Below, piece after piece: positions 1 through 10,826 of a DNA stretch of 10,826 nucleotides. The notes beneath the pieces were generated by a model that did not search any database, was not told the DNA's origin, and saw only the letters and a program-made list of their open reading frames with translations. Origin of the DNA: Pneumocystis sp. 'macacae' (taxonomy: Eukaryota > Ascomycota > Pneumocystomycetes > Pneumocystales > Pneumocystaceae). The stretch is from NCBI GenBank assembly GCA_018127085.1, contig JABMLO010000019.1:1-10826 (forward strand), written 5' to 3'. The stretch's first letter is position 1. Each line of letters opens with the position of its first letter. Position numbers and translations under genes: made by a program.

Positions 1-314
1 TTTTTGATCAACAGGATTTTGATTATAAGTTAAGTGTACTTAAGGATGGCATTCCAGTTTTTGGTGTTGAAGTTTATTCTACGTTGGGATGGAAAAAATA
101 TTCTCATGAGCAATTTGGCCTTGATACTTTTGGTGCTAGTGCTCCATACAAAGATATATACAAAGAAGTGTGTTTCAAAATGGTTTATATATAGTTATTA
201 ATATATTGTTAGTATGGTTTTACTGCGGAGAAAGTCGCATTAAAAGCTAAAAAAACGGTTGATTTTTGGAAAGATATTAAGCCTATACTGTCTCCTATAC
301 GACGAGCATTTTAA
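1..314 (+). CDS. TKL1: Transketolase, C-terminal end (5' part lies outside the window)
   Basis: Transketolase moves two-carbon units between sugar phosphates in the non-oxidative pentose phosphate pathway and uses thiamine diphosphate in the cytosol. Only the last ~89 codons are here, in two exons: 3-167 (the gene enters from the left) and 213-314, ending in TAA at 312-314. The reading is continuous across a 45-nt intron. Family hallmarks visible are YKLSVLKDGIPVFGVEVYST, then KYSHEQFGLDTFGASAP, then YGFTAEKVA, and a terminal SPIRRAF, which matches the usual end of fungal transketolases. These belong to the C-terminal domain, away from the cofactor site, so catalytic residues cannot be checked. 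The gene runs in the same direction as the next one and is separated from it by about 1 kb of AT-rich DNA. The symbol follows yeast usage. Identification is firm; intactness upstream is unknown. Confidence 0.93.
168..212 (+). other. Intron in transketolase gene (45 nt)
   Basis: It begins GTGTGT and ends TTAG, sits between codons (phase 0), and contains a TTATTAAT-like branch region. Removing it joins DIYKE to YGFTAEKVA, which restores the family sequence. Reading through it gives a stop (tag) within a few codons. Confidence 0.88.
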
Positions 315-1315: not shown

Positions 1316-2720
1316 ATGAATAGTCAAGAACGGCATCGTCCAGAAAAAAAAAAGAGTTTGGATGCAAAAGACAAAGTAGACGAGCCAACAGAAGCTAAAT
1401 CAACTCTTCCAGATGGAGGTCTCGAATCATGGCTACAAGTACTGAAAGCACACTTACTAATTACTATTGCATGGTAGGTTGTGAGTAAAATATCTAATGC
1501 TAACCAGTCAATCAGGGGCATTGTTAATTCATACGGTGTGTTCCAAACGTACTACAAGTCAACATTGTTGAAGGATTCGTCTGCATCAAGTATCTCGTGG
1601 ATTGGAACAGTACAGGGTTTCGGGATTATTCTTATAAGTCTTTTTATTAGCCCAGCATATGATCGGGGATATGGACGATCATTAACCATAGTGGGCTCGA
1701 TCTTGATTATATTTGGCTTGTTAATGACAAGTACAGCGAATAAATACTATCAAGTTTTTATTTACCAGAGTGTTTGCATTGGAATTGGGTCCGGGTGTGT
1801 CTTTATTCCGGCTTTAGGAGTGATAGCCAAGTATTTTGACAAACGGATATCACTGGCAATGGGAATTGCAGCGTCAGGCGCAGGAATCGGTGTGTGGGCA
1901 TGGGTGCAGTGCATTGGGCTGACTAGGTCTAGGGGGGCTGGTTTTTCCTCTTCTTTTCCAAAACCTGATCAACCGAATTGGCTTTGCTTGGACAATGCGA
2001 GTGTTTGCTCTGATTTCACTTGTACTGATTCTAATTTCTATTGTTATCGCAGAGATATACAAAATTCCGCATCAGCAGTCCCCTCCATTTAACTTTTCTT
2101 CACTGGGTGAATACACGTTTGTGGTCTTCAATATATCGGTGTTTTTTATTTTCATTGGCATTTATTTTCCCTATTTCTACATCCCCGTTTATGGGAAGTC
2201 AATTGGCTCATCTAGTTTTTCGGCATATTTTATTTCTATTTTAAATTCAGCGTCTGTTTTTGGTAGAATTATTCCTAGTTTTATTGCAGATCAGAAAGGG
2301 CCACTCAACATGTTTATCGTGTCCTCAGTAAGCCTGGTTGCTTTGACGTATCTGTGGATCGGTATCCGCACTATGGTTGGTCTTGTCATTTTTTCCGTTC
2401 TCTATGGGTTTTTCGCAGGGGCTGTCATGTCTCTTCCTACAGCTGTGATTGCAAAGCTGTCGTCAAATTTGAGCTATCTCGGCACCCAGATGGCTGTCTC
2501 GTATGGGTTTTCTGGTATTGGGTTTCTGATCGGGACACCCATAGCGGGCGCCATCCTGACTCACTCCAACAACGTGTTTTTCTGGGCACAGATTTTTTCG
2601 GCAACTGTGATGTTGGTTGGTGTCCTGGGGCTCTTTCTGATCAAGCTGAGCAAGTGCTCCCGCAGCTCTTCCCTCAAGATCCCGGTTCCTTTGAATTTGC
2701 GTTTTTACCATCAGCTCTGA
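1316..2720 (+). CDS. MCT-like major facilitator transporter (monocarboxylate porter family), three exons
   Basis: Predicted 439-aa membrane transporter, spliced from 1316-1473, 1516-1889 and 1933-2720, stop TGA at 2718-2720. The family (fungal MCH-type proteins, animal SLC16) moves monocarboxylates or other small solutes such as riboflavin across membranes; the substrate here cannot be told. Residues 1-30 are a charged cytosolic tail, followed by PDGG (32-35), the family's signature before helix 1. WGIVNSYGVFQTYY follows across the first splice, and the helix-5 sequence GIAASGAGIGG across the second. Twelve hydrophobic segments can be counted, ending with FFWAQIFSATVMLVGVLGLF. After the last helix there is only a short tail. 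The start at 1316 is the first ATG giving the conserved N-terminus. GC content rises toward the 3' end, as the gene abuts the GC-rich subtelomeric block. It is the last ordinary gene before the surface-antigen locus. Family call strong; function within the family open. Confidence 0.9.
1474..1515 (+). other. Intron 1 of the MCT-like transporter gene (42 nt)
   Basis: Starts GTAGGT, has a GCTAACC branch-like site, ends CAATCAG. It splits a Trp codon (tg|g) and restores the AWGIVNSYGVF sequence typical of MCT helix 1. Unspliced, the frame hits TAG immediately. Confidence 0.9.
1890..1932 (+). other. Intron 2 of the MCT-like transporter gene (43 nt)
   Basis: Starts GTGTGTGG, has a GCTGACT branch-like site, ends GTCTAG. 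Removal (phase 1) joins GIAASGAGIG to GLVFPLLFQNLINRIGFAW, which matches the family around helices 5-6. Without splicing the frame leaves the MCT pattern and ends at 2092. Confidence 0.88.
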
Positions 2721-3429
2721 CTTGCCGGGTGCTTTCTCGACAACTCGCTGTGAATGCTTGGTTTATGCTGGACAGCCGGCACATGCATCTGCTTATCTCG
2801 CTGGGGTATCTTTAGTTTTTAGTTTATGTATCTATCTAAGAATATTGGGAGGCCTGGCTGGGTCTGCAAAATATAGTAAAATGCCGGACCCGGGTGTCCA
2901 GAGCGCGCCCAGTGTCTCCGCAGAACACAACACGGGTGCCCGCAGCGTGTGTCCGAATCTGCCCGAGAATGATCTGTGCCCCGTGTGTGTCCGGGAACCC
3001 TGTGTGCCGGAGCAGGTGTCCGGATGCACGTGAGGGTGTACTCGAGATAATGGGTCTCCGCTTGGCACACGGACACGGGAGCGGTGTCTGGAGATGTCGG
3101 GCAGCGCACGGCGGGCTGGCGCGCAGAATAGGCGGTTTGATGCAGACTGGGGCAGCACACGCATTCCCAGGCACGCGTCCGGCAGCATGCGTCCTGGCCT
3201 CTGCAAGCGGGAGTCTGCTCGAGGCACAGACCCAGACGGGCCCAGGCGGAGTCCGGCGTGGCGCAGCGGGGGCTCCTGGAGTCTGCTGCCTGGGCGCCAC
3301 GGGGCCATGGCAGTGCATGCTGCGTCGGCGGACAGCCCGGCCGGGCAGCCGTGTTTTGCTTGCAGCACTGCCGCGCCTCTCCCGGGTGCTGCTGGGCATT
3401 TGCTGGGCCTGGGTGTCCGCCTGCTGGGT

Positions 3430-3605
3430 CCTGGCATGCACGTCGGGCACACATCGGGCGTACGTGTTGGATATACATATTGGGTATGCACATCGGGCTG
3501 CACGCTGCGCGTACACATTAAACACACCAAGTATACACGTATACACGTCGAGCATACGTTGGGCATACACGCAAACATACGCATCGGGTCTGCTGCCCGT
3601 GTGCG
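3430..3605. repeat. Degenerate short-period repeat of alternating purine-pyrimidine steps
   Basis: The tract repeats variants of CATCGGGC, CGTACAC and TATACACG, for example the alternating run gtatacacgtatacacg (3531-3547). Spacing is irregular, so this is a degenerate minisatellite rather than a clean array. Alternating purine-pyrimidine DNA rich in CA/TG and CG steps is the kind that can adopt left-handed Z-DNA; that property is inferred. Confidence 0.5.
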
Positions 3606-3659
3606 TGGTATGCATGCTGCTGTCTTCTGGAGCCGCCCATTGCTCCTGTCGCCCGCTGC

Positions 3660-4485
3660 ATGTGCTCTGTTGCACTGGGGCGCCTGCCGTGTATTTTCCA
3701 GTCTATCCTGCCCTTCCCGCCTCTTCCGGCTCTTCTCTTCTGTGTTTTCTGTCCTTCTCTGCAGGCCTGTGTAAACGCGTCGTTCCTCCCGGGTAGGTGG
3801 GTGCTCCTCTCTGGTAAGCGGGTTCCCGCTAGCCTTCTGTGGCTGGCTCCGCCCATAGTCTCTCTCTTTTTGCTCTGTCTCGCCTGTTTCTGCCTGGCGT
3901 CTCTGTTCCTGCTGCTCTTTTTGTTTCTAGTGCCTGGCCTCCTGCCCAGCCTGGCCGTTGCTGTCTTTATCTTTCTCTGCCCTGCTTGCTCTCTCTTTGC
4001 TTCTTTTGCTGCTCCTGCTGCCAGGCACCCGGCTGCGCCGCCGGCTGCCTGCGTGCGCGTCCAGCGCGCCCCAGCGCTGTCTGCTGCCTGCTTGCTGCGT
4101 CCGCTGCCTCCCTTTTATACTTTCTGGCGCTGCGTTCTTGCTCTGCCTTGCCAGGGGATCCCCGCAGTGCCGGGTGTCCGCCCCTTTTCAGGGGGTGTCC
4201 CGGGGCTTTTCAAATTGTTTTTCTCGGCATGAACCCTGTGCTTGCCCGTTTTCGGCATGGTCTTGCACGTGTCTTGCCTGTTTCGGCTGCCCTGTTTCCC
4301 CTTTGGCTAGTGCTCTGCGCCACCCGTGCATTTCCGTTGGCATTTGCTGTCTACAGCTGTCTGCATTCGTTTACTTTTTCTGTAAGCGGCCAATATTTTT
4401 CCCCTTGCCCGTCTTCCGTTTTAGCGTCTCAAGGAATATATTTTTCTTCTTCACCCATCTTCTCTATTATTACATTTGTGCAATC
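3660..4485 (+). promoter_or_regulatory. Pyrimidine-rich putative promoter and 5' leader of the MSG expression site
   Basis: From about 3660 to the MSG start codon the + strand is strongly C/T-rich, with runs such as TCTCTCTCTTTTTGCTCTGTC. CT-rich tracts near transcription starts are common in fungal genes, and this stretch directly precedes the only leader exon. Possible TATA-like words are ttttata (about 4112-4119) and aatata (about 4435-4440). Neither can be proven, and the transcription start cannot be placed from sequence. Confidence 0.4.
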
Positions 4486-5004
4486 ATGAGAGTTGCACTT
4501 CTTGCACTTTCTGCGCAGGTTGGCTGCGCCTTGGCGTCCATTATGTATGATGGATACAAGCCAGATTTCGACGAGCAGAGAGGTATGTTTTCCCGTGTGT
4601 TTTTGCTGCTTTCTGGTGCCTCTGCGCGCCCGTGCGGCTTTTTCTGTATAGCTGTCTGGGCGGCTGTATGCGCGCAGCGCATTGCAGCCCGTTTTTGGCC
4701 GGGAATGCGCGTTTTGCGCATTCGTTGCCGGGAAACGCCTTGTGCAGCGGCGGCAGCAGGAATGCGCGTTTTTGCCTGGCTAATGCGGTAGACCATGACC
4801 CTTATTCGGCATCGGTCAGGAATGGAAAGCAGCTCGGAGGCGGCCAGAAAAGTGAGTCAAGGCGCCTGTGGCGGCGCTCAGAGGAGGACTTTGCAGGGAT
4901 AGACCTTGGAGACGACCTGGATCTTGGAGTGCGTCTTGAGAAGGAGCTTGAGAAGAACTTTATGTATGGCGCTGTCCCCGTGGAGAAGGAGTCGGATCAG
5001 AATT
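4486..5004 (+). other. Upstream conserved sequence (UCS), the expression-site leader
   Basis: This is the GC-rich 5' part of the gene, encoding a signal peptide and an acidic/basic segment (LDLGVRLEKELEKNFMYG). Composition changes sharply to A-rich coding sequence right after the junction element. That is expected if the leader is fixed at the chromosome and the downstream gene is exchangeable. In Pneumocystis the UCS is present once per genome and transcription of MSG family I genes depends on it; this single-copy status cannot be checked here. Confidence 0.82.
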
Positions 5005-8003
5005 TGGCGCGGGCGGTGGCGCGGGCGGTTAAGAGGCGGGCGCAAGCAGTGCAAGGAGTTAATGTATATGAAGAGGAAGAATATCTTTTGGCGTTGATTG
5101 TGAAAAAAGATTATAATGATGACAATGAATGCAAAACTGGCCTAGAACTGTACTGTAAAAATTTAAAAGATTCAAATTTAGATCCAAAAGAAATACATCT
5201 AAAACTGGAAAATTTATGCAAAGTTGGAAAGGAAAAAGACAAATGCACAGAATTAAAAACGAAAATCACTCCAAAATGTACTGAATTCAAAGGAAAGCTT
5301 GGAACAGCAGCAAATAAAAATCCTACGGAGTTAACAGATACTGATTGCAAAGAGAATGAGCAACAATGTCTGTTTTTGGAAGCAGCATGTCCTGATGAAC
5401 TTAAAGATAAATGTATTGAGTTAAGAAATAAGTGTTACCAGAAGAAGCGTGATGAGGTGGCAGATGAAGCTCTTTTAAGGGCGCTTAACGGGCATCTTAA
5501 AACTGATGGTGAATGTAAAACGAAGATTAAGGATGTTTGTTTTGCGTTGGGGCAAGAAAGCGATGAATTATTGAAAAAATGCACAGATACGGACAATACA
5601 TGTACACCTTTAGTAAAAACAGGGCAGAATAAGTGTAAATCTCTGAAGGCAAAAATAGAAGAAGCAATAAAAACTGATGAAAAATTGAAAAGAAAAGGAC
5701 AATCCTTACTTATGGAATGCTACTTTTACGGAGAAAATTGCGAAAACGAAGAGTCAAAATGCAATGAATTGAAAGACAAATGCAAAGAAAAAGAGATCGT
5801 TTATTTGCCACCAGGTTCACATTTTGATCCTACGCAGCCGGAGCCTACAGTGATGGAAAAAGTGGGGTTGGAGGAGCTTTACAGGGAGGCAGCGGCACAG
5901 GGTGTTGTAATTTCAAAGCCGTTAGAAGCAGATATTCTTGATTTGTTAGTGTTGTTGTCAAAAAATCAGAACTTTGATGAAACTAAATGCAAGAATGTTC
6001 TCACTGATAGCTGTAACTCTATTAAGCATCTTTCAAATGATTTAGGAAAACTATGTGAAAATAAAAATGGATATGAAGATCAATGTAAAGAATTTAAAAA
6101 GGAATTTGATAGAAAAAAGACAGCTCTAACTGTAAGATTTAACGCCAAGCAATTCCAAAATGGAATTATGGCGTGGAGCGAATTACCGAAATATGTTGGT
6201 GAATATGATTGCACAATATCACAATCCGACTGTCTTTATTTTGAAGGTCAATCTTTTGGGACACAGTGTAAGAATGTTAGAGCAATGTGTTATAAAAGAG
6301 GACTTGATAGATTAGCAAATGAAGTATTGCAAAAAAAGTTGCGAGGGAAGTTTGATGATGAAGCTGGGAAATTACCTGAAAAGCTTTATAAGGAATTGGT
6401 AAAAATATGTAAAGACCTGAAAAATGAAAGCAAGGAGCTATTTGCATTATGCATGCAGCCAGAAGATGCAATCTTTGCAGTGTCGGCGGATTTGCATATG
6501 AAGACAAATCTATTGCAAGAACATCTAGATGCAAAGCGGGATCTTCCGACGAGACAGCATTGCACGGAGCTGGAGAAGAAGTGCGAGGATTTGAGGCATG
6601 ATTCGAGGGAAGTCGAGTGGCCCTGCCGGACGCTGAGGCACCACTGTGCGCGCCTGGGTGTTGCAGAGCAATTAGAAGAAAGATTGTTGAAAGAGAAGGT
6701 GGAAAACTTGGACGTGTTTGATTCATGTGTGAGGATTCTGAACGATAAATGCCGAGGATGGAATAGAAGGGGAAGGCAGAAATTTGCTCTTGGCTGTGTC
6801 GCACCGAATGTCACTTGCACGTATCTCACGGAGAGTGTGGGATCTAAGTGTATTGTACTGGGTGAGCGCATGAAAAAGAGTAACGTTGTAGAAGAGGCGA
6901 AGAAAGAGGGCAAAGAAGAAGAAACATGTAGGCGTTGGGTGCCATTTTGCAGCAAATTTATGCATAGTTGTAAAAATTTAACAGTTTCTGAGGATAAAGA
7001 TTGTAAAGGACTTGAAAAACAATGTAAAGTAGTCATTAAAAAGCTGGAATTTGAAGAAAAAGTACTCTACGAATTGAAGGGTAGCTTGAAAACAAAGAAT
7101 GAATGCAAAACAAAACTGGACAGATACTGCACTGAATGGGAAAAGGCAAAGAATGGACTTGAAACTTTATGCACAGACGAAAAAAAAGGAAAAAATAGGG
7201 ATGATGATGTTAGGAATGAACTCTGTGAAAGACTTGTGGAACAATTGAAGAAGTGGTGCCCTGAACTGAAGGAAAAACTCACAAAGACTAGTGATGAGTT
7301 GAAAGAGAAAGAAGAGGAATATACGAAAATTAAAAAGAAAGCAGAGGAAGCAATGGGAGCAGCAAATCTTATTTTATCTAGAACAAAAGCATCAGACGAT
7401 AAGGCAGAAAATAAAGCAACAGCGGGTGCAGCAAAAAATGCAAGACAATTTAAGCTTATTAGAAGAGACGCAAAAACACATGTGACAGAAAAGGAGTTGG
7501 CCGCGTTTGATCTGGTATCACAGGCATTTAATTTGTATGTAGAGTTGAAGGAGGAGTGCGAAGATTCAGTGAAGAAGTGTGGGTTCAAAGGGGAGTGCCC
7601 ACAATCTCAAGATGCATGCAAAACGATAGAAGAAAAATGTAACGGATTGAAAGCATTAGAAATAACAGAACATAAAGCACAGGCGGAGACGAAGACGGAG
7701 ACAAAGACAGAAACGAAGACAGTCGAATCAGGGGCAGGAGAAAAGACACTGGGGGAGCAATGCAAGTCAGTCCAGACGACAGACGTCTGGGTCACACACA
7801 CATCGACACACACGAGCACGTCCACGTCGACGTCGACGACCACATCGACGGTGACACTGACGTCGACACGGCGGTGCAAGCCGACGAGGTGCACGACCGG
7901 AGACGAGGCGGGGGAGGTGGCGCCGAGTGGGGGGCTGAGGATGCGCGGGTGGGGTGCAGTGAGGGGCGTGTTGCTGGGGATGATGATTTCGGTTATGATT
8001 TGA
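4486..8003 (+). CDS. MSG: Major surface glycoprotein (MSG) joined to the expression-site leader (UCS)
   Basis: Spliced from 4486-4582 and 4792-8003, giving 1102 aa. MSGs are abundant GPI-linked, mannosylated surface proteins of Pneumocystis that bind host matrix and vary antigenically. Residues 1-18 (start MRVALLALSAQVGCALAS) form a secretion signal. Up to about residue 103 is GC-rich leader, then the junction element with a dibasic KRR site at 113-115, a likely kexin cleavage point. From about 131 on come roughly six related modules, each a leucine-rich helix followed by spaced cysteines (for example ECKTKIKDVC), starting near 131, 256, 400, 536, 659 and 783. N-glycosylation sequons occur at N577, N705 and N761. 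A charged coiled-coil-like segment lies near 860-900. An ETKT repeat (998-1009), a Thr/Ser-rich stalk (1028-1058) and a hydrophobic tail ending VLLGMMISVMI fit GPI addition. The frame is intact, and fusion to the leader implies that this is the expressed copy. The ATG at 4632 lies inside the intron and is not the start. Confidence 0.92.
4583..4791 (+). other. Intron in the MSG leader (209 nt)
   Basis: Starts GTATGT, has a branch-like GGCTAATG near 4779 and ends GCGGTAG. Phase 1 splicing (g|ac) joins the signal-peptide exon to the long frame in register (DEQR then DHDPYSAS). It is much longer and GC-richer than the 42-45 nt introns of the neighbours. It contains a perfect hairpin at 4703-4723 and two copies of a GGAATGCGCGTTTT element (4702 and 4759). 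An intron with variable tandem repeats is known in the expression-site leader of human Pneumocystis; I do not see a clean tandem array here. Confidence 0.88.
5005..5045 (+). other. Conserved recombination junction element (CRJE) with a 12-bp tandem duplication
   Basis: Encodes LARAVARAVKRRAQA (residues 104-118), matching the ARAVKR core of Pneumocystis junction elements, which carry a Lys-Arg site for a kexin-type protease. Two adjacent perfect copies of GGCGCGGGCGGT lie at 5006-5017 and 5018-5029, followed by TAAGAGGCGG. The junction marks where silent MSG genes are recombined into the expression site. Exact limits depend on comparison with silent copies. Confidence 0.8.
7686..7868 (+). repeat. 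Coding repeats in the MSG stalk: ETKT x3 and Thr/Ser codon repeats
   Basis: Three 12-nt units encode ETKT (7686-7721). Further on, ACG/TCG/ACA codons encode a Thr/Ser run (7776-7868) with internal ACGTCGACG repeats. In the family such Thr/Ser-rich stalks precede the GPI signal and are likely O-glycosylated. Repeats of this kind commonly change length by slippage. Confidence 0.75.
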
Positions 8004-8130
8004 AGCATGGGCATGGTCTGGGAAGCATGTATACTAGGAACAATGGCATGGGTGCATCTACCGGGGCCGCCCGCCGTGCACTGTGCGAGCGTTGCATGTG
8101 TGCGCATGCCTTGGCGCGCGTGCTGCCACG

Positions 8131-8218
8131 AATTTGACGCGAATTTGCCATGAATTTGCCATGAATTTGCCGCGAATTTGCCGCGAATTTGCCGCGAATT
8201 TACCCCGCATTTACCCCG
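8131..8218. repeat. Eight tandem 11-bp repeats downstream of the MSG gene
   Basis: Consecutive units have consensus AATTTGCCGCG: AATTTGACGCG, two AATTTGCCATG, three AATTTGCCGCG, AATTTACCCCG and CATTTACCCCG. The order suggests stepwise duplication of variant units. They start 127 bp after the stop codon, so they probably lie in the 3' untranslated region or just beyond. No mobile element is associated. Confidence 0.92.
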
Positions 8219-8229
8219 CAAAAAAACAG

Positions 8230-8235
8230 AATAAA
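8230..8235 (+). terminator. Possible poly(A) signal of the MSG transcript (AATAAA)
   Basis: AATAAA sits about 227 nt after the MSG stop, directly behind the 11-bp repeat array. Fungal polyadenylation signals are loose and A-rich motifs are common here, so this is only a candidate. Confidence 0.3.
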
Positions 8236-8245
8236 AAACAGAATT

Positions 8246-8350
8246 TGTGTGGGGTAAGGCCGAAAACGGAAGCGCCCCGCCGAAAACGCGAAATCTGTGT
8301 GGGGTAAGGCCGAAAACGCGAGATTTGTGTGGGGTAAATGTGGGGTAAAG
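8246..8350. repeat. Direct repeats with core TGTGTGGGGTAAGGCCGAAAACG
   Basis: The core TGTGTGGGGTAA starts at 8246, 8296 and 8326, with a shortened copy (TGTGGGGTAA) near 8340. The GGCCGAAAACG part follows the first two, and GCCGAAAACGCGA also recurs at about 8278 and 8308. Spacing is irregular (50 and 30 bp). It is not the TTAGGG telomere repeat. Confidence 0.8.
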
Positions 8351-8577
8351 CCTGAGGGGGATGCAGAGGTAGACTCAAGAAAGTGTGCAGTAGAGGTGTG
8401 CGTGGGATTCGCGCAGATTCAGGCAGATTTAGAGGGGGAAGAGCAGAATAGAACGCTTTTTCTGTGTGCCGGGAGCAGAAGCAGGTGTCAAAGAGGGTGT
8501 GCACGAGTAGCGGGGTGAGTGCACGCAGAGGGTGGGGTGGAGGCGAGGTGGGGAGAAGAATAGGAGTAACAGGGCAG
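8351..8577. other. Purine-rich spacer leading into the large repeat array
   Basis: G/A-rich on the + strand (words such as gaggggg, gagggtgtgcacgag). It holds sequence like the GTGCACGAGG and GGTGGGGTGGAGGCGAGG segments inside the large repeat, so it may be a decayed partial copy. No gene seen. Confidence 0.5.
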
Positions 8578-9310
8578 AAGTAGAAGTAGATTGAATGTAG
8601 CGTTAAACGTAGATTAAAAATGCAGCGAATTTTTTGTAAACCAAAAATCAAGACGGCGAGTTTAGAGGCAGTGGCTGAAAAAGAAAAGTGCAAGAGAAGG
8701 GAAGTGAAAGGAAATGTTAGACTTAGTTTAGAGGTGGATTTAGATTAGATTTGGCTTGTGTTTAAGAAATAAAGAGTAAGAGTTTTTTGCAAGTCAACAG
8801 CAGGAAAATGAACAAGATAGAGTAAATAGCAAGTGAAGGGCAAAAGTACAGGAAATAAAAAATAAAAGTGAATATTAGACTCGGATTGAGTGTAGAAGTA
8901 GATTAGATTTAGAAGGGGAAAGAGTAGGGTAAAGGTTTTTTTCTTGTAAATAAAAGGTGAACTGGAGATGAGGTGGGGAGAGGCATAAGGAGTGCAGCGA
9001 GAGGGAAGGTGTGCACCAAGCAACGAGATGAGTGTGTGCACCAAGTGGAGAGGTAGGGTGAGGTAGGGAGGTGGAGGATGTGCACGGTAGAAATAGGGTG
9101 GGAAAGAGGGTGCACCAGGAGTGAGGTGGAGGAGATGGCTAAGGGGAGGCAGGGGAGGAGGTGAGGGAGGGGTATAAGGGCGTGTGCGCGCAGTACTAAG
9201 AGTAGAAGAAGATGGTGTGCGGTGTACAGATAAGGCAGGGTGAGGGAGAGGTGAGGGTGAGGTGGAGGTGGAAGTGATAGCTGGTGGGATAAAAAAGAAG
9301 AGTGCAAAAG
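8578..9310. repeat. Large repeat, copy A
   Basis: First and most divergent copy. Its first ~150 bp match the other copies weakly (ttttttgtaaaccaaaaatcaag). From ttggcttgtg (8751) it resembles copy C closely, and from about 8840 it is a more diverged relative of B and C. Confidence 0.8.
9171..9190 (+). promoter_or_regulatory. Conserved TATA-like motif in repeat copy A
   Basis: GGTATAAGGGCGTGTGCGCG, a TATAA word followed by a CpG/alternating GC stretch. It is perfectly conserved in all three repeat copies while flanks vary. It could be a promoter core or a protein-binding site; no gene follows it. Confidence 0.35.
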
Positions 9311-10045
9311 AAATAGAAGTAGAAGTTAGATTTAGCTTTAGATTAGGATTAAAAGTAGATTAAGAATAAAAGAATTTTTTGTAAATCAAAGGTAGAAAGT
9401 TGGTGGGAGATAAAGATAAGGTGGTGGTAAGTGAAGGTAGAAACACAAAAAGATAAAAACTAGAACTGGGTATTAGATTGGAAGTGGAATTAGATTAGAT
9501 TTGGCTTGTATTTAAGGAATAAAAAGTAAAAGCTTTTTCTTGAAGATCAAAAATTGGACAAGAATTGCAGAGATGGGGTAAATAGCAAGTGAAGGGCAAA
9601 AGTACAGGAAACAAAAAGTAGGAGTGGATGTTAGACTCAAATTGAGTGTAGAAGTAGATTAGATTTAGAAGAAAAAAAACAAAATATTTTTTGCAAATTA
9701 AAGATGAACAGGAACAAGGTAAGAGAGAGGGTGTACACGAGGTAGCGAGTTAGGCTGTGTGCACCAGGCAACAAAGCATGAGGTGTGCAGGAGGTAAGCA
9801 CGAGCTAAGCACAAGCTGAGGTAGGGAGGTGGGGGAGGTGCACGGAGATGGGGTGGGAAAGAGGGTGTACGAAGGAGTGAGTAGTAGGGGGAGGAGGGGA
9901 GGTGAAGGGGTGGTGAAGTAGGGGTATAAGGGCGTGTGCGCGCAGTACTAAGAGTAGAAGGTAGGGTGTGCGGTGTGCAGATAAGGTGAGGGTGAGGTGA
10001 GGGAGGTGAGAGTAGAGGTGAGGTGGGGAAGAATAGAGTAAAAAA
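9311..10045. repeat. Large repeat, copy B
   Basis: Its segment from about 9595 to 9870 is almost identical to copy C (about 10335-10610). Its segment 9501-9585 differs from both A and C. Confidence 0.85.
9923..9942 (+). promoter_or_regulatory. Conserved TATA-like motif in repeat copy B
   Basis: Same 20-mer as in copy A, followed by the same CAGTACTAAGAGTAGAAG in both copies. Confidence 0.35.
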
Positions 10046-10629
10046 CAGAAGTAGAAGTAGAAGTAGATGTTAGATTTAGCTTTAGATTAGAATTAAAAGT
10101 AGATTAAGAATAAAAATGTTTTTTTTGTAAATTAAAAATAGAATTGGTGGGAGATAAAGATAAGGTGGTGGTGAGTGGAAGGTAAAAATAGAAGAGAAAG
10201 GAAATGAGAGTGAATGAATATCAAACTAGACTTTGATTTAGATTAGATTTGGCTTGTGTTTAAGAAATAAAGAGTAAGAAGTTTTTTGCAGGTCAACAGC
10301 AGGAAAATGAACAAGATAGAGTAAATAGCAAGGGCAAAAGTACAGGAAACAAAAAGTAGGAGTGGATGTTAGACTCAAATTGAGTGTAGAAGTAGATTAG
10401 ATTTAGAAGAAAAAAAACAAAATATTTTTTGCAAATTAAAGATGAACAGGAACAAGGTGAGTAAGAGAGAGGGTGTACACGAGGCAGCGAGTTAGGCTGT
10501 GTGCACCAGGCAACAAAGCATGAGGTGTGCAGGAGGTAAGCACGAGCTAAGCACAAGCTGAAGTAGGGAGGTGGGGGAGGTGCACGGAGATGGGGTGGGA
10601 AAGAGGGTGTGCACCAGGAGTGAGTAGTA

Positions 10630-10652
10630 GGGGGAGGAGGGGAGGGGAGGGG
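10630..10652 (+). other. Potential G-quadruplex tract
   Basis: Four runs of at least four G (10630-10634, 10639-10642, 10644-10647, 10649-10652) separated by AGGA, A and A. The related copy B has fewer runs (gggggaggaggggaggtgaagggg), so the GGGGA unit has expanded in copy C. Pure purine DNA of this kind can also form triplexes. Confidence 0.6.
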
Positions 10653-10685
10653 AGGTAGGAGAGGGGTGAGGGGTGGTGAAGTAGG

Positions 10686-10705
10686 GGTATAAGGGCGTGT
10701 GCGCG
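10686..10705 (+). promoter_or_regulatory. Conserved TATA-like motif in repeat copy C
   Basis: Same 20-mer; here the following bases differ (gtgcactatgactagaag), so conservation is confined to the motif itself and the poly-purine context before it. Confidence 0.35.
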
Positions 10706-10826
10706 GTGCACTATGACTAGAAGAAGATGGTGTGCACGGTGTGTAGATGAGAGGGGGTGAGGGAGGTGAGAGTAGAGGTGAGGTGGGGAAGAATAGAGTA
10801 AAAAACAGAAGTAGAAGTAGAAGTTA

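Follow-up and report, generated by a model that had tools for sequence, protein, structure and literature searches.

Organization of the MSG expression site

The window analyzed here is the whole of contig JABMLO010000019.1 (C19, 10,826 bases) of the genome assembly of Pneumocystis sp. 'macacae' (P. macacae), and it contains an expression site for a major surface glycoprotein (MSG), in which a leader of the upstream conserved sequence (UCS) type is joined in frame to a complete family I MSG gene. The assembly has 19 contigs and 8.27 Mb; C17, C18, and C19 are small contigs beyond the 16 large ones, and the published P. macacae assembly, from sample P2C, is given as 8.2 Mb in 16 scaffolds (PMC7940399).

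UCS exon 1 (4486..4582, plus strand, 97 nt) starts with the ATG at 4486 and encodes a signal peptide, called by hydropathy only (Kyte-Doolittle mean of 1.67 over 20 residues at the hydrophobic N-terminus). It is followed by a predicted intron (4583..4791, plus strand, 209 nt, GTATGT...CTAATGCGGTAG) that is required for an open frame: the frame read from the ATG without splicing stops after 101 codons, while exon 2 is open from 4792 to the stop codon at 8001-8003 and the spliced frame encodes 1102 amino acids with one terminal stop. When 4792-8003 was shuffled 200 times by mononucleotides, open frames reached at most 128 amino acids. UCS exon 2 up to the junction (4792..5004, plus strand) encodes the constant leader peptide, and the junction itself (5005..5037, plus strand) is of the conserved recombination junction element (CRJE) type, encoding ARAVARAVKR with a kexin-like KR site, with an exact 18-mer at 5019-5036 and a tandem repeat at 5005-5029. 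This agrees with the described CRJE, which has tandem ARAV before a KR kexin site; the constant leader peptide is believed to be cut off in maturation (PMC10622565).

The MSG body (5037..8003, plus strand) has no leader of its own beyond the CRJE and shows the features of family I (Msg-A1 type) of the Msg superfamily. Pfam found five stretches of the MSG domain (PF02349, E 1.2e-50) and an Msg2_C domain (PF12373, E 3.6e-12) on the open frame 4551-8000; furthermore, the protein has a Thr/Ser-rich stalk, recognized by eye, and a hydrophobic C-terminal tail (Kyte-Doolittle mean of 1.31 over 20 residues), assigned to the glycosylphosphatidylinositol (GPI) type by hydropathy only. Downstream lies a subtelomeric 3' flank (8004..10826, no strand assigned), formed by a spacer and then by purine-rich imperfect repeats of about 0.75 kb up to the contig end, with a self-repeat of 80.5% identity over 1406 columns. 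The MSG gene is thus placed subtelomerically and transcribed towards the telomere on the basis of these downstream repeats of subtelomeric type, the contig ending before any TTAGGG. An Rfam scan of the window at gathering thresholds gave no match.

The initial annotation of this stretch, which had joined the leader exon, the intron, the ARAV-ARAV-KR junction and an MSG body with Thr/Ser stalk and GPI-type tail in a single frame as a UCS-type expression site, is borne out by these results, within the limits given above for stalk and tail.

A second leader copy at a chromosome-size contig

The same annotation regarded this site as the single active locus and predicted one match for the leader in the assembly. 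A DNA search with the leader (4486-5004) found two genomic copies only, the one in C19 and another on the minus strand of C3 (C3:331-849) with 84% identity along the whole leader. A protein search with UCS exon 2 retrieved the same two copies, 77% identical in amino acids, and nothing further up to an E of 1. More than one leader copy is the result that the annotation itself had named as refuting. The claim of a single locus therefore did not hold for the assembly, where the UCS copy number is two, although two lineages may be present in it.

With 571,200 bases, C3 has the size of a chromosome, and at its left end it breaks off within an MSG gene, after about 300 bases of it. From this end inward, it shows MSG, leader, a GC-rich stretch, a major facilitator superfamily (MFS) gene and a transketolase gene, which is the order of C19, and both the C3 leader and its MSG start are open and joined in frame. 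Exon 1 and the intron have in C3 the same lengths as in C19 (97 and 209 nt), with the same GT/AG and CTAAT signals, and the intron is predicted because the spliced frame is open and these lengths are equal. Judged by gene order and sequence, the ends of C19 and C3 are homologous expression sites, and not a leader and a stray fragment.

It could be argued that no site but C19 is active in this genome and that C3-left is a remnant, either dead or mis-assembled, as only some 300 bases of its MSG are present before the contig ends. However, C3 is a contig of chromosome size, its leader and MSG start are open, and it looks resident because its MSG start has a 98% identical relative on C15, so that we consider this explanation very improbable.

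The public protein PMAC_001885 (1243 amino acids, partial, with an MFS domain) also matches UCS exon 2 and the MSG start, at 75% identity over the whole query; the annotated model thus appears to run the MFS gene, the leader and the MSG start together.

Divergence between the two sites

The upstream neighbors of the leader are represented at both ends. C19 starts inside a transketolase gene, whose 3' end (1..314, plus strand) comprises codons at 3-167, an intron at 168-212 and the last exon with its stop at 213-314. Pfam found Transketolase_C_1 (PF22613, E 1e-13) on 3-167, and the frame upstream in C3 is likewise a transketolase according to Pfam. Bases 1-334 of C19 and C3:5471-5809 are 93.8% identical; the 88 codons compared show 12 differences (4, 1, and 7 at the first, second, and third codon positions) and two amino acid changes, with dN of 0.010 and dS of 0.21. 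The C19 tail looks constrained, and therefore the full gene should continue leftward; the 1512-base transketolase frame has one copy in the assembly, in C3 only.

The MFS gene (1316..2720, plus strand), similar to monocarboxylate transporters, has several exons and is a conserved neighbor upstream of the leader. Pfam matched PF07690 at 1478-2089 (E 1.1e-12) and 1923-2717 (E 3.2e-13), and the start codon at 1316 was read from the sequence by likeness to the P. jirovecii protein, a relative with 83% amino acid identity. After trimming of intron codons, one exon shows 61 differences between C19 and C3 in 261 codons (15/3/43 by codon position; dN 0.026, dS 0.29) and another exon 26 differences in 122 codons (3/1/22; dN 0.007, dS 0.34). 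These differences are mostly transitions (55 versus six transversions and 23 versus three, respectively). The two UCS exons together show 54 differences in 115 codons (11/11/32) and 22 amino acid changes, with dN of 0.11 and dS of 0.44.

Across all coding parts, dS therefore ranges between 0.21 and 0.44 and dN between 0.007 and 0.11. Since silent sites differ far more than amino acid sites, the differences between C19 and C3 are evolutionary and not read errors. The alternative that C19 is a poorly polished duplicate of C3-left could draw on the use of Nanopore reads for the P. macacae assembly (PMC7940399) and on the short open frames of C18, but it is hardly credible given the intact frames, the preponderance of transitions in the MFS gene, and the excess of third-position changes in the MFS and transketolase genes, which is weaker in the leader. 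Sequencing error as source of the differences was ruled out by this codon-position bias.

The leader peptide, with dN of 0.11 versus 0.007-0.026 in the neighboring genes, suggests by this comparison a faster amino acid change than in its neighbors. The noncoding parts are unevenly conserved. The GC-rich region between transporter and promoter (2721..4320, no strand assigned), pyrimidine-rich in composition from about 3500, has diverged from the C3 copy, with identities per 60 bases of 43-77% in 2881-3720 and 59-93% in 3721-4320. Compared with 77-85% in 4141-4320, identity in 60-base steps rises to 93-98% in 4321-4500. The high values (93-98% per step) extend over 4321-4560, which includes most of exon 1, and the step across the boundary between exon 1 and the intron falls to 75%. 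The roughly 165 conserved bases that precede the ATG (4321..4485, plus strand) are on these grounds the probable promoter and 5' untranslated leader, of which the orthologous pair of sites yields a footprint.

Some further observations concern these noncoding parts. The 3' half of the intron (4681-4800) is 91-93% conserved between C19 and C3, versus 72-83% for UCS exon 2 (4801-4980), and contains an exact 14-base motif twice (4702-4715 and 4759-4772), the first copy being followed by its complement in a palindrome seen by eye (GAATGCGC...GCGCATTC). The strands are also strongly asymmetric in composition: the purine fraction of the plus strand is 0.34 in 3501-4500, upstream of the promoter, versus 71-77% in the subtelomeric repeats (8501-10826).

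Published divergence within P. macacae is lower, with a mean of 0.8% among assemblies, while 14-16% of all aligned bases differ between P. macacae and P. jirovecii (PMC7940399). In the MFS protein, C19 and C3 are 94.1% identical over 236 shared columns, C3 and P. jirovecii 88.6%, and C19 and P. jirovecii 86.4%, and because of these values C19 is placed nearer to P. macacae yet well apart from it. A tree of MFS proteins groups C3 and C19 with a support of 1.000. Contamination by P. jirovecii was ruled out by the MFS identity (86% in amino acids) and by the missing site for the P. jirovecii UCS primer GK135, which has no match with up to three mismatches in the window or in C3:1-10000.

Relatives of the MSG gene and of its 3' flank

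The junction 18-mer was found with 0-2 mismatches at 72 places of the genome, C19 and C3-left included, so that the CRJE at the UCS-MSG junction is common to the silent msg-I genes; the leader was found at only two of the 72 places. Two more matches with three mismatches lie inside contigs, and a control with the reversed pattern gave three.

The C3-left MSG start has close relatives in this repertoire: its first 298 bases match a C15 MSG at 98% over the full length and a C9 MSG at 92% over 264 bases, among the 40 of 69 candidates scored. For the corresponding stretch of the C19 MSG, the best full-length match reaches 78%, with shorter pieces of at most 89% over 62 bases (32 of 32 candidates scored), and the whole body reaches at best 76% in its own-genome search (40 of 95 candidates scored). 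As regards exchange of the MSG gene with silent genes, a relative at 98% is thus at hand for C3-left and none above 78% over the full length for C19, whose repertoire may lie outside the assembly. The longest exact block shared with another gene after the junction is 44 bases for C19, the shortest among 44 distinct 5' segments (a set without resident genes carrying some junction variants), followed by 45 bases for the 300-base piece of C3 and 46 bases.

That the MSG body stands apart was not taken by itself to prove that it is foreign, as three resident genes are equally isolated. Two pairs of resident MSG genes, C6:530176/C14:6754 and C1:8026/C12:454853 (L039/L040 and L043/L044), lie on different chromosome ends and show no difference in the 1518 bases that start at the junction, which points to a recent exchange between the ends or a recent duplication from one to another.

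The 3' flank was also compared. Starting with its first base, the sequence that follows the terminal MSG gene at C4-right is matched by 24 other contig ends with 75-94% identity (25 of 64 candidates scored), the match of C10-left covering 475 bases only. Over the first 100 flank bases, C4-right, C13-right, and C14-right are mutually 95-98% identical, and C19 is 62-64% identical to them; over 349 bases, these values are 90-93% and 56-60%. For the first 337 flank bases of C19 (8004-8340), no listed match covers the first 162 bases and the later pieces have at most 96 bases (32 of 32 candidates scored), the spacer being unlike the resident ones. Exchange of the MSG gene or of the telomere end with silent genes of the resident genome should leave a site with a flank of the resident type. 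The description of the C19 gene in the initial annotation as the currently installed variant of this genome is consequently doubtful: neither the C19 MSG nor its 3' flank has a close relative among the scored candidates, and the C3 MSG start has one.

These data also bear on the possibility that two ancient expression-site haplotypes are kept in one P. macacae population and that two strains in the animal gave one each. The allelic-looking synteny favors it, together with a divergence far above the 0.1-0.8% published within the species (PMC7940399). Nevertheless, the divergence extends into the transketolase gene, and a resident-type 3' flank would be expected if C19 had exchanged telomeres within the population; we regard such haplotypes as improbable.

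Chromosome ends were counted by hand among the matches listed. The 16 large contigs have 32 ends, and subtelomeric repeats were found at 30 of these, the ends without listed repeats being C3-left and C12-left, which could be supplied by the unplaced C17 and C18. C19 would then be the 33rd end, one too many, because the 30 ends with C17 and C18 fill the 32, and by this count there would be no room for it in the resident genome. As for C18 itself, its listed MSG open frames are short (108-473 amino acids, versus about 1000 at most other places), although one of its MSG segments is 99.7% identical to resident genes in the 44-segment comparison; its sequence is possibly unpolished.

Origin of the C19 site

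C19 probably stems from a second Pneumocystis lineage of macaques, which diverged from P. macacae at about species level and whose DNA, from the same sample, was co-assembled with it; C19 would be the family I MSG expression site of that lineage and the ortholog of C3-left. This reading is supported by the synteny with C3-left over transketolase, MFS, leader and MSG start, where all coding parts differ at silent sites by far more than the 0.1-0.8% known from P. macacae; by the MFS protein, in which C19 is nearer to P. macacae yet well apart; by the single transketolase copy, found on C3 despite the C19 tail; by the lack of close resident relatives for the C19 MSG start and 3' flank, unlike the C3 MSG start; by the hand count, in which C19 would be a 33rd end; and by its shared post-junction block, the shortest of all segments compared. 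In addition, mitochondrial data indicate that macaque Pneumocystis may comprise two species, for which nuclear genes have been called for (PMC7482955), and a second lineage agrees with this record. We infer the second lineage, the activity of the site, the exchange of its MSG and the processing of the protein from sequence comparison.

The main rival explanation is that P. macacae has two expression sites because the transketolase-MFS-leader end was long ago duplicated and placed at a further chromosome end; a haploid genome would then hold two UCS promoters and could express an MSG from each or select one of them. This would account for the presence in one assembly of two leaders with open frames, each joined in frame to an MSG, for the low dN versus dS between the two flanking MFS genes, and for the location of the C19 MSG among P. 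macacae MSGs. It is unlikely, however, since the C19 flank is not of the type common to the 24 other ends, the MSG start has no close relative, no second transketolase gene was found in the assembly, and C19 would need a 33rd chromosome end; furthermore, one UCS copy per haploid genome is described for P. carinii and P. jirovecii (PMC2743713, PMC5676039). A haploid P. macacae with two long-diverged MSG sites, both maintained, in which the rule of a single UCS and of one expressed family I MSG per cell would fail, is unlikely as well.

Several points weigh against a second lineage. A distance of about 0.1% outside msg genes is reported among six P. macacae isolates, and the consulted part of that report mentions no second lineage (PMC7940399). 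The C19 MSG lies inside a P. macacae clade in a tree of 41 MSG proteins with few P. macacae representatives, a placement predicted by a second lineage and by two sites in one genome alike, and the MFS tree would look alike for a sister lineage and for a paralog. In the 44-segment comparison, the nearest neighbor over 1.5 kb has 75.3% identity for C19, and the resident L009, L030, and L051 have values of 74.2-75.3%. Farther out, the C19 flank matches resident ends over at least 1 kb at 65-69% (listed matches, 38 of 51 candidates scored), and the 3' flank of C3-left is absent from the assembly, as that contig ends inside the MSG. Finally, no other contig of a second lineage was seen, the whole assembly not having been screened for foreign pieces, and survival of only this end would be odd.

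By analogy with related species, one promoter in 4321-4485 would drive a spliced transcript in which the UCS provides the start codon and the signal peptide; a kexin-type protease would then cut after KR and remove the constant leader, and the variable MSG would become GPI-anchored. Recombination at the CRJE would replace the MSG, the partners being silent genes that lie at other chromosome ends in the genome to which the site belongs.

If C19 comes from a second lineage, it provides nuclear sequence for a second macaque Pneumocystis, whose species limits are open for want of nuclear genes (PMC7482955), and the P. macacae reference holds foreign sequence at a locus central to antigenic variation. 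If both sites belong to one genome, the single-expression-site model would need revision. No report of two UCS copies or of a second lineage in this assembly was recognized among the top-ranked titles and abstracts.

Comparison with known expression sites

The closest known site is C3-left of P. macacae, with the partial protein PMAC_001885. It agrees with C19 in the order of the genes, the lengths of exon and intron, the junction element and the class of MSG. The two differ in the leader (84% in DNA, 77% in exon 2 amino acids) and carry different MSG genes, of which the C3-left start has a 98% relative elsewhere and the C19 start does not, among the candidates scored. The msg-I site of P. jirovecii is like C19 in having a UCS with promoter, start codon and leader, a CRJE encoding tandem ARAV before KR, and a single-exon msg-I gene downstream (PMC5676039, PMC10622565); its neighboring MFS protein is 86% identical in amino acids to that of C19. 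The P. carinii site also has a UCS with the CRJE at the UCS-MSG junction, and it is described as a unique telomeric expression site with a donor repertoire of about 80-90 genes; it differs in that its CRJE is given as 24 bp (PMC2743713). The MFS protein of P. carinii is distant from that of C19 (59% in amino acids).

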